Position numbers and translations under genes: made by a program. DNA of 64,000 nt, from assembly GCA_029262855.1 (NCBI GenBank), contig JAJCYP010000126.1, forward strand, positions 1-64,000. The letters run 5' to 3'. Below the pieces are notes generated by a model. It had not been told where the DNA came from and searched no databases. It was given only the letters and a program-made list of their open reading frames with translations. Origin of the DNA: Bacteroidota bacterium. GTDB taxonomy: Bacteria > Bacteroidota > Rhodothermia > Rhodothermales > UBA10348. Below, in pieces: positions 28,465 to 35,020 of the stretch. Within the stretch, counting starts at the first letter, position 1. Each line of letters opens with the position of its first letter.

Positions 28465-29949
28465 ATGCTGAATCTTCAACAGAAACTGTCGCAGCAGCAG
28501 AAGCTGTCTCCGCAGCAGATCCAGTATATCAAGCTGCTACAGCTCCCGACGCTGGCGCTGGAGCAGCGGATCAAGTCGGAAATGGAGTCCAACCCCCTCC
28601 TGGAGGAGGGACTGGAGGAAGAGGAGGAGCAGCAGGAGCGCGCAGAGTCCAAGGAGGAAACCAGTAATCAGGAGGACGAGCCAAAGGCCGACGACGAGGA
28701 TTACAACTGGGACGAACTTCTGCCGGACGCCGACGAGCTCTATGGGCACAAGGCGCGGGTGGACAACACTGATGAAGAGGAGCGCCGTGAAATCCCGATG
28801 GCGGCCGGTGTCTCCATGGCCGAGCACCTCAAGGACCAGCTGGCATTTCTGGGCCTGACCGACGAGCAGGAGCTCATTGCCGAGCAGATCATCGGCTCCG
28901 TGGATGAGGACGGCTACCTCCGGCGGCCGCTGGAGAGCATCATTGACGATGTGGCTTTCAACTACGGCGTGCTGGTGGATGAGGATGAGGTCGAGGCCAT
29001 CCTGAAGCGTGTCCAGACCCTTGAGCCTCTCGGAATCGCCTCTCGTGATCTCCGCGAGTGCCTGATGGTCCAGATCGAGGCCATGCCGCCGGAAACCCCC
29101 GGGAAAGGGGCCGCTTTCCGGATGCTGGAGAAGACCTACAAGGAGTTCACCATGAAGCACTTCGACCATATCAAGCGGAAGCTTGATATCGAGTCAGAAG
29201 AGCTCAAGGAGGCCTTCGACCTGGTACAGCGACTCAACCCAAAGCCCGGCGAAGGTGACTTTACGGCAGCACAGAACTACATCACCCCGGACTTCACGGT
29301 CCGGTATGAAGAGGGTGGCGACGATTTCCTGATCAGTCTGAACAGCGGGAACACGCCCGAATTGCGGGTCTCGAAGCAGTATCGCCAGATGCTCGAGCAG
29401 ATCAGTACAGAGAAAAAGAGGGGCTCGGACAGCTCGGCCTTCGACTCCGACACCCGAAACTTCCTGAAGACCAAGCTGGAGTCGGCCAAGTGGTTCATCA
29501 ACTCCATTCACCAGCGTCGCCATACGATGTTGAAGGTGATGGAGGCCATCGTGCAGATCCAGGGCGATTTCTTCCGCCTCGGGCATGGCCACCTGCGCCC
29601 GATGATTCTAAAGGACATCGCCGACATCATCCACATGGACATCTCGACGGTGAGCCGGGTGGTCAACGGGAAGTACGTCCAGTGTGACTTCGGTGTCTTC
29701 GAACTCAAGTACTTCTTCTCCGAGGGTCTCTCGACCGACAGTGGGGAAGAGATCTCCAACAAGGAGGTCAAGGCCATCATCGAAGAGATCATCGGCGGCG
29801 AGAGCAAGCAGAAGCCGCTGTCCGATCAGAAGATCGCCACGATGCTGGAGGCAAAAGGTTTTCAAATTGCCAGACGCACCGTCACCAAGTATCGCGAGCA
29901 GTTGGGCGTCCCCGTTGCTCGCCTGCGGAAGCAGATCGTCCTCTCTTGA
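28465..29949 (+). CDS. rpoN: RNA polymerase sigma-54 factor
   Basis: RpoN directs RNA polymerase to -24/-12 promoters that need an AAA+ activator. The 494-residue protein has the Gln-rich region I (MLNLQQKLSQQQKLSPQQIQYIKLLQL), an acidic region II at about 48-80, the core-binding domain from about 115, the cross-linking and HTH part around 380-410 (ILKDIADIIHMDISTVSRVVNGKYVQ) and the RpoN box (ARRTVTKYREQLG) near 475. The activator at 14498 and a candidate -24/-12 promoter at 34705 in this same window are possible partners. The aminotransferase starts five bases after its stop. Confidence 0.97.
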   Translation: MLNLQQKLSQQQKLSPQQIQYIKLLQLPTLALEQRIKSEMESNPLLEEGLEEEEEQQERAESKEETSNQEDEPKADDEDYNWDELLPDADELYGHKARVDNTDEEERREIPMAAGVSMAEHLKDQLAFLGLTDEQELIAEQIIGSVDEDGYLRRPLESIIDDVAFNYGVLVDEDEVEAILKRVQTLEPLGIASRDLRECLMVQIEAMPPETPGKGAAFRMLEKTYKEFTMKHFDHIKRKLDIESEELKEAFDLVQRLNPKPGEGDFTAAQNYITPDFTVRYEEGGDDFLISLNSGNTPELRVSKQYRQMLEQISTEKKRGSDSSAFDSDTRNFLKTKLESAKWFINSIHQRRHTMLKVMEAIVQIQGDFFRLGHGHLRPMILKDIADIIHMDISTVSRVVNGKYVQCDFGVFELKYFFSEGLSTDSGEEISNKEVKAIIEEIIGGESKQKPLSDQKIATMLEAKGFQIARRTVTKYREQLGVPVARLRKQIVLS

Positions 29950-31430: not shown

Positions 31431-31492
31431 GAGTAGTCAGGGTGTCTTGTGGGGCCCTGAGTCGAAGGTCACTGGCCCGGCGCCCAGAGATG

Positions 31493-31510
31493 TTGGCCAC
31501 TAGATGCCAA
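31493..31510. promoter_or_regulatory. TTGGC-N8-GCCAA dyad upstream of the peptide cassette
   Basis: TTGGC at 31493-31497 and GCCAA at 31506-31510 form an inverted repeat with an 8-base spacer, in the 171-base gap between the aminotransferase stop and the thioredoxin-fold gene. It lies about 90 bases upstream of that gene. A weaker TCAGGG/CCCTGA dyad at 31437-31460 may be a terminator stem for the aminotransferase, though without a T-run. Operator function is inferred. Confidence 0.35.
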
Positions 31511-31601
31511 TCGCGTCGCAAAAAAAGTACGGAGAAAACTGAAGTCGCCCGGTAACGCGAGCGGTAGGTTCCTCCATTCCGCTTCGCCCCGCCCACTCTC
31601 A

Positions 31602-32156
31602 ATGGCCGTCGCAACAAAACTGTCGACGAGCTCTGCTATGAGAAACGCAGTCAAACTAGTCGCAGGCTCGGCCTTCCTGATTGGCGCATATTTCCTTCAG
31701 CCAGGTCCTGCCACTCCCCCAGAGCCACTGCTTGTTGACCGCGGTATCCACCTCGACGGGTCGACTTGGGAGCGCTTTCCCGTACTCTTTGGACAAACCG
31801 GCACGGCCGGGCTGCCTGCTGAGCTCACGGTATTTCTTACGTATCGCGACTGCCCGCCTTTCGCGGAAATGACTGAGGGACTCGTGGCGCTCACGCAGGA
31901 ATCGGGCACGGACCTGACGACCGTCATCAGCGGTCCCAACGTCAACGGCATCAAGCGGAGTTTTTCGTGGATCGAGGCCCCTCCCGTTGTTTTGGCGGAC
32001 ACGTCGAACTGGGCTTGGGGTCAGCAAGGCCTAGTTCGAACTCCCGCGATCCTGAGGTCTCTGGGTGATGGCACCTACGACGTTGCCTACCCCACGATCG
32101 CTACCAAGGCGCAAGAGATCGTGGATCAGCTTTATCTCTCCGACACCAACCCATAA
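31602..32156 (+). CDS. Membrane-anchored thioredoxin-fold protein (cassette gene 1)
   Basis: This 184-residue product has an N-terminal hydrophobic segment (RNAVKLVAGSAFLIGAYFLQPG) that reads as a signal anchor. The rest is thioredoxin-like: a strand LTVFLTYRDCPPF carries one Cys where redoxins have their active site, and RTPAIL later has the cis-proline position. There is no CxxC pair, so a classical disulfide reductase is unlikely; a single-Cys redoxin or a Cys-free scaffold role is possible. A second ATG at 31638 would start right at the anchor and is equally likely. It is 16 bases upstream of the Cys-rich peptide gene. Confidence 0.6.
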   Translation: MAVATKLSTSSAMRNAVKLVAGSAFLIGAYFLQPGPATPPEPLLVDRGIHLDGSTWERFPVLFGQTGTAGLPAELTVFLTYRDCPPFAEMTEGLVALTQESGTDLTTVISGPNVNGIKRSFSWIEAPPVVLADTSNWAWGQQGLVRTPAILRSLGDGTYDVAYPTIATKAQEIVDQLYLSDTNP

Positions 32157-32172
32157 CCAATCCTTTACGGTC

Positions 32173-32370
32173 ATGAAGAAACTTGTCAATTTCTGCTGCA
32201 CTGCCTTTCTGCTGGCGGCATTTGGGTTCTCTGCAAGCGTTATGCTAGCTCAAAGTCAGCCCATCGAAGCTGCAGAAACCTGTCTTATGATGAGGTATGA
32301 CGGAAAGCCTGGCTCGTGCACTACAGGAACCTGTGGGTGCCCTGCGGCTGATGAAGGCTGCTGCGACTAA
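32173..32370 (+). CDS. Cys-rich secreted small peptide (65 aa; cassette gene 2)
   Basis: The product begins MKKLVNFCCTAFLLAAFGFS, a clear Sec-type signal, with likely cleavage near VMLA-Q or shortly after. The remaining part, about 38 residues, ends in a six-cysteine stretch: ETC, GSC, GTC, GC, GCC with final Asp, spacing C-x11-C-x4-C-x1-C-x6-CC. It resembles in layout the Bacteroidota NVEALA peptides (signal, short linker, Cys-rich end, next to a six-bladed propeller gene), but the NVEALA text itself is absent. Three bases separate it from the propeller gene. Function is unknown. Confidence 0.65.
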   Translation: MKKLVNFCCTAFLLAAFGFSASVMLAQSQPIEAAETCLMMRYDGKPGSCTTGTCGCPAADEGCCD

Positions 32371-32373
32371 CGC

Positions 32374-33450
32374 ATGAAGCGGACTCTTATTGCTGCCCTG
32401 GGCCTTCTCTGCTCCTGCAGCCCTGAGCCGCAGAATCGTGATCTTGTCCACGCAGATTCACCGACGACGCTTGAGTCGTCGGTGAATCTGTCGCTTGTGC
32501 GGTCCATCGATATCGTAGAGGGTGACTCGTTATTCATTGCACAGATTGGCCAGGGAATTGTAACTGAAGACCCGTGGCGCCTGATTGTCTTGGACAATCG
32601 TGGGTCGTTCGGCCTAGTCTTTATAGATTCTACTGGCGTTGTCACAAACCTGGTTGGCAGAGAAGGTGAGGCTCCAGGAGAATTTTCGTTTCCGCCGCTT
32701 GCCGTGCTCGAGACCGGCGATGCGCTCCTAGCCCTTAACCCATTCGGTTATTTTGCGGTTGAGGCGGCCGAGGTACAGCCCATAACGGTCCTCCCATTCG
32801 GGATGTCTATCCGATACAGTTCCCTGCCAGGATTTCAAGTTCTGCACCGAGCAGGGCGCTTCTACGTGGCGACCAGCGTGGCAAGGACTGGCGGCTGGTT
32901 CGCCGAACTTGGATCAGATTGGACGATCAAGAGCGTATTTGGAGATTCGCCGCCGCTCTATCGAGAGGGCCAGCGAGGAGAAAAAAATACATTTTTGGAA
33001 TTGCTCGGGGACCGGCACATTGTGACCAGCAACAACATGGCTGACTATGTCGAGGTCTTCGAGGAGACCGAGGACGGTCCAACACTGACACTGCAGATTC
33101 CGATCGTATCTGCGCCCTTCAGAAAAAAGACTGAGCCCTACGTCGACTTTCGACCTGAAGCTTACATCTGCCAGTATATAGAGAGCTTCTCGGATCACAG
33201 GGGACTCTTTGCGCTCAGTGATGAAGAGTTCCTGTTTGTTTATGGAACACTGCCGCCCCAAGCGTGCACCAGCCGTCGTTATGACACACGACGGTTCTAC
33301 GGACTCATCATGGACATCGCTGGGAATTCGGTCGAAACGGTCGAGCTCCCGGGAGATGTTATCGCGGTCGATAGCCAAAACCGCCTCTACATCTTGGCCT
33401 CCGCCGTCCCCGACGAACGGCAAATTGCTGTGTACGAGCTGAGGCGCTAG
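32374..33450 (+). CDS. Six-bladed beta-propeller lipoprotein (cassette gene 3)
   Basis: The 358-residue product has a lipoprotein signal (MKRTLIAALGLLCSC, with Cys at 13 or 15). The body resembles the Bacteroidota six-bladed propeller lipoproteins (BF3164/TolB-like group): VGREGEAPGEFSFPP is the typical Gly-rich loop, seen elsewhere as IGREGxGPGE, and repeated strand-turn units follow, ending in AVDSQNRLYILAS. It is thought to be surface- or periplasm-exposed. The gene contains a perfect 16-bp inverted repeat at codons 27-39. Third gene of the cassette, with a convergent regulator only seven bases after its stop. Confidence 0.78.
   Translation: MKRTLIAALGLLCSCSPEPQNRDLVHADSPTTLESSVNLSLVRSIDIVEGDSLFIAQIGQGIVTEDPWRLIVLDNRGSFGLVFIDSTGVVTNLVGREGEAPGEFSFPPLAVLETGDALLALNPFGYFAVEAAEVQPITVLPFGMSIRYSSLPGFQVLHRAGRFYVATSVARTGGWFAELGSDWTIKSVFGDSPPLYREGQRGEKNTFLELLGDRHIVTSNNMADYVEVFEETEDGPTLTLQIPIVSAPFRKKTEPYVDFRPEAYICQYIESFSDHRGLFALSDEEFLFVYGTLPPQACTSRRYDTRRFYGLIMDIAGNSVETVELPGDVIAVDSQNRLYILASAVPDERQIAVYELRR
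32453..32490 (+). repeat. Perfect 16-bp inverted repeat with 6-base loop inside a coding region
   Basis: CAGATTCACCGACGAC at 32453-32468, loop gcttga, then its exact complement at 32475-32490. The stem lies about 80 bases into the propeller gene and 83 bases after the peptide stop. A 16-bp perfect stem in coding DNA is far beyond chance. There is no T-run, so it is not a simple intrinsic terminator. It may set differential expression of peptide and propeller by stopping exonucleases or stalling polymerase or ribosomes. Confidence 0.9.
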
Positions 33451-33457
33451 GCGTGGC

Positions 33458-34249
33458 TTAACCTCTCGTTTCTGATGGACGCTTCCCGATGTGCCTCCGA
33501 AAGAATGACGAGAAGGAACTCTCTGAAGAAAACCCGCACCCAAATGCAATCTCGCTGCACGTGGCGGATGTCTGGCAGAGGAGTCTCTCGGCAAGTCTCA
33601 GTCGGTGCCAGGAGACGTACTGCCGAGGCGACCTTCCGACGAAAAAGCGAAATCGTGTAGAGACGTTCTTGTCGGTTATGCCACAGTCTGCCAGGAGTGT
33701 GGCTATCGAAAGCTGGTAATCAAAGAGCCGGAGATTCAGTGCCTCTAGCAGTCTGGCCACATCCCAGGGAGCTTTGCAATCTGGGCCTCCAACCTCTGAT
33801 TGGCAGTATTGGGCAACCTCTTGGTGCACTGTCCGACCGGTCTTCCTCCTCGGCCTAGATTCGGTATTCAACCCAATGGCGAGCCGCCGGATTTGCACTA
33901 CCAAGTCGCCGAGGTCCGCCCCCTTATCCAAGAATCGGTCGGCCCCCGCCCCAACGCACGAGTCTTCTAGATCTAGGAAACCACTATATGCCAGAATCTT
34001 GAGCGACCCGAATCTGCCTCTAAGTTGGCGAATGAGATCTACGCCGACAAGGGCCGTTTCGGCGCCCGCCCGAGGCGGCATTTGCAAGTCTATTAGCGCC
34101 GTGTCGAATGTTTGCGATGCCACAATTGACAATACATCGTGCGCATTGTCAGCCTCGCCGGTAACGGCCAGCCCCGGCTGTTCGTTCAGATGGGCAACCA
34201 CACCTCTTCGAAGTCCCTCGTGGTCGTCTGCTACCAGCACCCGGATCAT
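33458..34249 (-). CDS. Response regulator with AraC-type DNA-binding output
   Basis: From ATG 34249 the product is 263 residues; AGGAG lies five bases before the start, a rare clear Shine-Dalgarno here, and rules out the longer frame. The receiver has Asp8-Asp9, phospho-acceptor Asp54 in ALIDLQMP and Lys109 in FLDKG. The last 90 residues form an AraC-family double helix-turn-helix (SPRQYVSWHRLRLAERLLCQTSATCSEIAFGCGFSSESSFSSFFRRHIG). No histidine kinase is adjacent. It faces the peptide cassette tail to tail and is divergent from the 84-aa gene, so it may control either or itself. Confidence 0.9.
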   Translation of the reverse strand: MIRVLVADDHEGLRRGVVAHLNEQPGLAVTGEADNAHDVLSIVASQTFDTALIDLQMPPRAGAETALVGVDLIRQLRGRFGSLKILAYSGFLDLEDSCVGAGADRFLDKGADLGDLVVQIRRLAIGLNTESRPRRKTGRTVHQEVAQYCQSEVGGPDCKAPWDVARLLEALNLRLFDYQLSIATLLADCGITDKNVSTRFRFFVGRSPRQYVSWHRLRLAERLLCQTSATCSEIAFGCGFSSESSFSSFFRRHIGKRPSETRG

Positions 34250-34351
34250 CGGCTCTCCTCGTTGTCCCGCACTACTGCCGACTACCAGCACCTCAATAGG
34301 GCTCATTGTGCCGAGCCACGCGGGCACGGCTGCAGGATTCGATGGCGGCTA

Positions 34352-34374
34352 TATAGAATATTGGTGCGTCTATA
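34352..34374. promoter_or_regulatory. A/T-rich TATAGA-N11-TCTATA dyad upstream of the response regulator
   Basis: TATAGA at 34352-34357 and TCTATA at 34369-34374 form an inverted repeat in an A/T-rich patch about 105 bases upstream of the regulator start. AraC-type and receiver proteins commonly bind such spaced half-sites near their own promoters. The patch is unusually A/T-rich for this window. Operator or promoter role is inferred. Confidence 0.35.
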
Positions 34375-34597
34375 CAGGAGAACGGAAAAACGCCCGCGTC
34401 AACGACATGCCAGAAAGACAATTCTCCGTAGCGGACAGTTAGCAAACGCGCGCTCATTTGCAATCGGTTTAGCACATTGCGCGACCGCACTGGGAGATCC
34501 TGTCTCAATTGGGGGCACGACTGGCCGCGGGCTCGTCCGATCCCACGGACATCGGGCGGTGGGGCCGGGAAAAAACCGCATTCGAATGAAGTTTGTC

Positions 34598-34700
34598 GCA
34601 TCCAGGCCAAAAGTGCCCTGGATGCCCCGCAAACCCCCATCAGTCCGAGTTCGCGGCGTAAATAACGTGCCCCTGCGTAAAGCAAATGTCGCCCAGGGGC
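34598..34700. promoter_or_regulatory. Two dyads upstream of the sigma-54-like promoter (possible activator sites)
   Basis: GCATCCAGG at 34598-34606 pairs with CCTGGATGC at 34617-34625 (perfect 9 bp, 10-base spacer). GCCCCTG at 34669-34675 pairs with CAGGGGC at 34694-34700. A smaller GTCCG/CGGAC pair lies at 34535-34550. Relative to a start expected near 34732, the first dyad is centred around -120 and the second around -47; upstream activating sites of sigma-54 activators are usually at -80 to -150. The rest of the 516-base gap 34250-34765 shows no gene. Confidence 0.45.
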
Positions 34701-34704
34701 GATC

Positions 34705-34721
34705 TTGGCACGGTGTTCGCT
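34705..34721 (+). promoter_or_regulatory. Sigma-54-type -24/-12 promoter candidate for the 84-aa gene
   Basis: TTGGCACG, four bases (gtgt), then TCGCT. The consensus is TTGGCACR-N4-TTGCW, so there is one mismatch (C for T in the -12 box) and the invariant GG and GC doublets are exactly 12 bases apart. Transcription should start near 34732, about 34 bases before the ATG at 34766. RpoN and an activator gene are present in this window. An AAGCGT/ACGCTT dyad at 34730-34750 overlaps the expected start. Confidence 0.55.
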
Positions 34722-34765: not shown

Positions 34766-35020
34766 ATGGCTTCCGCTAAACTCGCCTCCAACAGTTCTTC
34801 CCTCACCATGCTGTTCAACCTGTACATGCAGGGCCAGATCAGCGAACCAGTCTGGAAGCGCATGATGCGCCTCATGGACTCAAAGAAGGCCACCAAGAAC
34901 GAACGCATGGCATTGGCGCGATACGTCCGCGATGTCATGGAAGAGACTGGGGCGGCCTCCCTCAACATGCCCCGGGTCAACGAACTCGGCGACATGCTGA
35001 CTCACGTAAGACATTCCTAA
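34766..35020 (+). CDS. 84-aa helical protein, function unknown
   Basis: MASAKLASNSSSLTMLFNLY opens a basic protein that is probably all helical (QISEPVWKRMMRLMDSKKATKNERMALARYVRDVMEE). There is no signal peptide or membrane segment. I do not recognise the family. The gene stands alone between a sigma-54-like promoter and a structured 3-prime region ending in a strong terminator, so it is a one-gene transcript. An upstream GTG (34757) could add three residues; no Shine-Dalgarno decides. The coding reading is supported by placement and by normal composition, not by homology. Confidence 0.6.
   Translation: MASAKLASNSSSLTMLFNLYMQGQISEPVWKRMMRLMDSKKATKNERMALARYVRDVMEETGAASLNMPRVNELGDMLTHVRHS

Follow-up and report, generated by a model that had tools for sequence, protein, structure and literature searches.

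Positions 31602–33450 of the 64,000-nucleotide stretch of Bacteroidota DNA analysed here (the window) hold a real, conserved cassette of three genes, which encode a thioredoxin-fold protein predicted to be membrane-anchored, a small cysteine-rich secreted peptide and a putative beta-propeller lipoprotein. The cassette lies in an insertion, recurs with conserved cysteine spacing in other Rhodothermales, has a strong stem-loop after the peptide gene and, in Rhodothermus, exchanges its peptide core and propeller jointly. At somewhat short of even confidence, we favour a reading in which a polymorphic secreted disulfide peptide is made in excess alongside a cognate propeller, most likely for bacteriocin-like competition between close relatives. 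The pairing of the peptide with its partner is better supported than antagonism. The three genes are as follows:

31602–32156, forward strand: membrane-anchored, single-cysteine thioredoxin-fold protein, predicted from the ORF, homologue alignment and fold search (leave-out profile E 7.9e-5).
32173–32370, forward strand: 65-residue secreted peptide with the pattern C-x11-C-x4-C-x-C-x6-CC, from sequence and family alignment (leave-out profile E 0.0037).
32374–33450, forward strand: beta-propeller lipoprotein with a lipobox-like LLCSC, from an order-wide profile search and AF2/Foldseek (leave-out profile E 8.4e-35).

The ORFs share a strand and are separated by 16 and 3 bases, the tight packing that the original prediction described. 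No Pfam or NCBIfam model names any of the three proteins. Searches with single sequences gave only weak propeller matches in relatives, and chance-level matches for the peptide; reading the neighbourhoods of those propeller matches revealed, in Rhodothermus-like genomes, the identical order of anchored single-cysteine thioredoxin protein, small secreted peptide and propeller. A search with the propeller alignment then revealed a distinct subfamily across Rhodothermales, limited to that order among the genomes searched, and 12 more cassette peptides were read beside its genes. Leave-out profiles, built from other genomes only, were matched to the window's full set of 1,174 stop-to-stop frames; for each profile the top-ranked frame was the corresponding member of the trio, at the E values given above, indicating that the trio is more than chance. 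A literature search did not find the cassette described, and none of the papers it covered names NVEALA or DUF5128.

Of 114 Rhodothermales genomes, 12 encode the thioredoxin-fold protein and the same number encode the peptide, with 11 common to both; all of these have the propeller subfamily, which was counted at E 1e-40 or better and is present in 15 genomes. The co-occurrence of the first two has a Fisher p of ~1e-13 with genomes counted without correction for kinship, and at the level of genera they fall in the same 5 of 49 (p 5e-7). Homologous cassettes with conserved cysteine spacing were found in Rhodothermus, Longimonas and other Rhodothermales, bearing out the suggestion of a cysteine-rich secreted peptide with redox-fold and propeller partners. 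By comparison, 23 other Rhodothermales propeller genes, including further ones from the window's own genome, have no such peptide directly upstream, with one doubtful distant candidate. The distribution is patchy, inserted and multi-copy. In 395 Bacteroidota genomes, the thioredoxin profile matched only Rhodothermales proteins and one ordinary CxxC TlpA-like protein (G370), which we rejected as a family member. A DNA signature for the peptide end, NCFC[DE][IV][IV]I, gave 95 matches over 84,980 species, of which four lie in cassettes, all in Rhodothermales; the others look like chance. The cassettes found by this signature, which is narrower than the family, belong to Rhodothermus, an uncultured Rhodothermaceae genome and Longimonas halophila. 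Beyond Rhodothermales, the cassette was not found in the genomes searched. Four Rhodothermus-like draft contigs (L117, L118, L119 and L073) end at or near cassette copies, as near-identical repeats would give, so copy numbers there are lower bounds.

The thioredoxin-fold protein has 184 residues: a membrane helix at the N terminus is followed by the thioredoxin-fold domain. Translation could instead begin at an internal codon near 31638. Its sole cysteine, C84, occupies the first cysteine position of CxxC. Across eight aligned homologues, C84 and P148 are invariant, and in 8/8 the CxxC active site is incomplete, with one invariant cysteine only. The AF2 model has low confidence (pLDDT 54.6), though its strand and helix order is that of thioredoxin and almost every one of its 50 best PDB matches has a TlpA/ResA/CcmG-like or related thioredoxin fold, in keeping with the anchored single-cysteine thioredoxin fold originally proposed. 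No homologues were found in viral contigs. At a locus in another order (L229, 7763–11635), two anchored TlpA-like CxxC proteins are encoded alongside ABC transporters and a secreted protein whose tail is cysteine-rich, possibly another peptide-export locus.

The window peptide has six cysteines in its mature part, as was predicted, and two more within a signal-peptide-like leader; it ranks best of the 1,174 window frames for the peptide profile. Cassette peptides share a common leader and a core with the pattern C-x(n)-C-x(4-6)-C-x-C. In Rhodothermus, core dN is 0.3–0.6 and dS ranges from ~0.8 to saturated, one near-identical pair excepted. With dN well below dS, these cores are not evolving neutrally but under constraint at the protein level.

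The propeller ORF encodes a putative lipoprotein of 358 residues. Its AF2 model (pLDDT 76, pTM 0.80) finds six-bladed NHL propellers as first PDB matches by Foldseek, consistent with the six-bladed lipoprotein of the original prediction, and the Bacteroides lipoprotein XusB is also near the top. The homologous propeller of the L078 cassette scores 31.6 bits against DUF5128 (PF17170; curated cutoff 22.9); the window propeller has no Pfam match.

Comparison of cassette copies shows that core and propeller change together. Between Rhodothermus copies the leader retains 82–97% DNA identity, while the core and mid-propeller fall to 45–70% in many pairs. L071 and L072 are 98% identical in the core and 88–99% in the propeller but only 86% in the leader, whereas L072 and L073 are 93% identical in the leader and 68% in the core; these contrasts indicate that core and propeller move together. 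Type-B cores always occur with type-B propellers, behind the same thioredoxin gene and leader. A type-A propeller remnant lies downstream of the type-B pair in L117, and a type-A propeller follows in L075 and L122. Some genomes retain propellers only. In L029 (7475–7665) the peptide frame is frameshifted, and the adjoining thioredoxin and propeller genes are intact. Propellers that persist beside a frameshifted, degraded or absent peptide fit retained immunity, though they also admit other readings.

A third type of content occupies the slot between thioredoxin and propeller genes in L031 (9083–10110, reverse strand), L069 (60–900) and L070 (4975–5354, reverse strand). Here a small membrane protein with several helices accompanies a glycine-rich hydrophobic frame, GIGFAQYGAWIGYALALGGISAGTTALVGFAIGVVGAVVCA, which these copies carry in broken or truncated form; by analogy, the two are reminiscent of a bacteriocin–immunity pair.

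Downstream of the peptide gene we found a further element:

32453–32490, forward strand: perfect 16-bp stem with a 6-nt loop, located 82 bases past the peptide stop codon, within the 5′ coding region of the propeller gene.

No other perfect hairpin in the window has a stem of at least 12 bp, and this one, found at a single place in the genome, is probably an mRNA stem-loop element. A stem-loop at least as stable as -23.5 kcal/mol lies in the 150 nt downstream of the peptide stop in 14 of 15 cassettes, compared with 5 of 64 operon-internal control junctions (7.8%), though in Rhodothermus copies the stem lies within the propeller signal-peptide codons, so composition could contribute; -28 kcal/mol is reached by 8/15 cassettes and 0/64 controls. 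Counted by lineage instead of copy, the comparison is 9/10 against 5/64 (p 2e-7). Stem sequences are unrelated between lineages, Rfam gave no match, and the junctions between thioredoxin and peptide genes have no stem-loop. In L116 the stem-loop is followed by six T, like a terminator; the window hairpin has no T-run and is located within the propeller gene, and the common type-B subtype has no hairpin. In bacteriocin operons such as nisA-nisB, a stem-loop placed between precursor and partner genes is taken to favour the peptide over the partner. A separate cluster of propeller genes without a thioredoxin gene occurs in L030 (7458–14279), some preceded by small secreted cysteine-containing peptides, one of which has CPGSGAPCCEE, resembling CPAADEGCCD in the window peptide; a hairpin is present in 2/3 of these peptide-propeller pairs.

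The surroundings of the cassette include two larger features:

31431–34704, no strand: insertion of ~3.3 kb, absent from sister genomes, where the flanking genes are ~0.3–0.4 kb apart.
33458–34327, reverse strand: response regulator with a receiver and an AraC-type HTH (Pfam Response_reg and HTH_18), likely start near 34249.

The insertion, comprising the trio and the response regulator, is missing from four relatives (two congeners and two further members of the family), where its flanking genes are neighbours. It coincides with the A/T-richer island remarked on earlier, with a GC content of 0.52–0.59 against 0.615 for the window; no convincing direct repeats were found at its ends. The original prediction includes neither the hairpin nor the joint core-propeller exchange, nor does it describe an insertion that takes in the response regulator as well. 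The response regulator gene is convergent with the trio and possibly regulates it. AraC-type HTH genes also adjoin the cassettes of L078 and L080, and a regulator may therefore be an optional part of the cassette. In L078 (5293–12295), an HlyD-type adaptor gene on one side and an RND pump gene on the other enclose the cassette and an AraC-type gene; these neighbours could be partners or merely mark an insertion site. The sigma-54-like promoter originally associated with the cassette is a real site (34706–34721, forward strand, TGGCACggtgTTCGCT), but it precedes a small gene at 34808–35020, near rpoN (28465–29949), and is also conserved in G001 and G002, sister genomes without the cassette. We assign it to that flanking gene and reject it as part of the cassette.

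We infer binding, a role in folding, excess expression and antagonism in the following scheme. The Sec-type leader would export the peptide, which would then be trimmed and folded via disulfides, and the anchored single-cysteine thioredoxin-fold protein may aid this folding by forming a mixed disulfide. As cognate binder of the peptide, the propeller lipoprotein encoded downstream would sit on the producer's envelope, while the stem-loop, as a leaky terminator or mRNA stabiliser, would maintain an excess of peptide over propeller. The likeliest use would be bacteriocin-like competition among close relatives, in which the propeller would provide immunity or capture. It is possible, if doubtful, that the cassette represents an undescribed Rhodothermales class of antagonism or kin recognition, in which a Sec-exported disulfide peptide has its specificity matched by a co-inherited propeller lipoprotein, both being swapped together while the leader stays conserved.

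Evidence for the favoured scheme includes the co-occurrence of the three genes, the leave-out profiles and the 23 other propeller genes that lack such a peptide. Also in its favour are the conserved leader with a variable but constrained core, the matched core-propeller exchange, the enrichment of stem-loops at the peptide stop with none at the thioredoxin-peptide junctions, and the patchy, inserted, multi-copy distribution. Against it, the cassette has no conserved dedicated exporter or processing peptidase: neither a dedicated exporter nor a modification enzyme was found in the window insertion or the Rhodothermus cassettes, and RND/HlyD genes flank the L078 cassette. The hairpin is missing in type-B copies and in the window lacks a T-run and sits inside the propeller gene, which also counts against the scheme, and to our knowledge beta-propellers are not an immunity fold. 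The regulator in the insertion weighs on the same side, as it also fits signalling. A peptide pheromone system, with the peptide as signal, the propeller as surface receptor or carrier and the response regulator or AraC gene as output, would account for the receiver and AraC regulator inside the insertion and the AraC-type genes beside the L078 and L080 cassettes, and matched core-propeller pairs would also suit a ligand and its receptor. We nevertheless consider it unlikely: the insertion has no histidine kinase, the Rhodothermus cassettes have no adjoining regulator, and the window regulator is convergent rather than co-transcribed.

Two other functions seem improbable. The C-x-C motif of the cysteine-rich peptide and the XusB match would suit capture of a metal or cofactor, bound outside the cell by the peptide and recaptured by the propeller lipoprotein in the manner of XusB. 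That protein, a siderophore-binding propeller lipoprotein of Bacteroides, is however reported as seven-bladed and paired with a TonB-dependent transporter (PMC13142918), and the cassette has no such transporter. Furthermore, the RND pump beside the f13 cassettes, including that at L078, does not exceed the heavy-metal cutoff, and the hypervariability of the core is unusual for a metal site. Equally improbable is a fixed two-subunit complex in which the peptide, matured by the thioredoxin-fold protein, is a small disulfide-rich subunit of the propeller, like the methylamine dehydrogenase light chain. The mau arrangement combines a redox-fold gene, a cysteine-rich small chain and a propeller, which the cassette gene set resembles, and core and propeller co-vary; yet the cassettes have no MauE-like gene, their peptides have no conserved tryptophan, and a peptide-favouring hairpin and peptide-less propellers misfit a fixed stoichiometry.

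Rhodothermales have many beta-propeller lipoproteins, most of them without an explained role. One subfamily can now be linked to a particular secreted peptide as its partner, together with matched exchange and an RNA element that recurs. This gives such propellers a testable function and points towards disulfide peptides secreted by Gram-negative bacteria that live in hot and salty places.

The cassette was previously likened to NVEALA-type loci. Like the NVEALA peptides of Bacteroides (PF14055), its peptide is small and secreted, with a hydrophobic N-terminus and cysteines, and has a propeller lipoprotein neighbour (for NVEALA, according to the original prediction), encoded directly downstream of the peptide in all cassettes. 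PF14055, however, matches neither the window peptide nor six other cassette peptides, and nothing in the sampled Rhodothermales genomes, including the cassette carriers G000, G028, G052 and G079; the NVEALA motif, already noted as missing, occurs neither in the window peptide nor in any cassette peptide of the alignment. The adjoining propeller gene does not outweigh the lack of both profile match and motif, and the cassette also has a thioredoxin-fold partner and a hairpin. Kinship is thus unsupported, and we reject membership: judged by its sequence, the window peptide is not an NVEALA peptide.

Other known systems share single components. The thioredoxin-fold protein resembles the TlpA/ResA/CcmG membrane-anchored thioredoxins in its N-terminal anchor, thioredoxin fold and proline at the cis-Pro position, but retains only the first cysteine of CxxC and is unmatched by Pfam and NCBIfam models. 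DUF5128 six-bladed propellers have the same predicted fold, and the L078 propeller exceeds the PF17170 cutoff, whereas cassette propellers form a separate, peptide-paired subfamily and the window protein lacks a Pfam match. XusB is likewise a propeller lipoprotein and a match by structure, but it differs in its reported seven blades and TonB-dependent transporter (PMC13142918). In place of the modification enzyme and dedicated ABC exporter of bacteriocin and lanthipeptide operons such as nisA-nisB, the cassette has a Sec-type leader and a propeller lipoprotein partner; with these operons it shares a conserved leader with a variable core, a stem-loop before the partner and a patchy, variable distribution.
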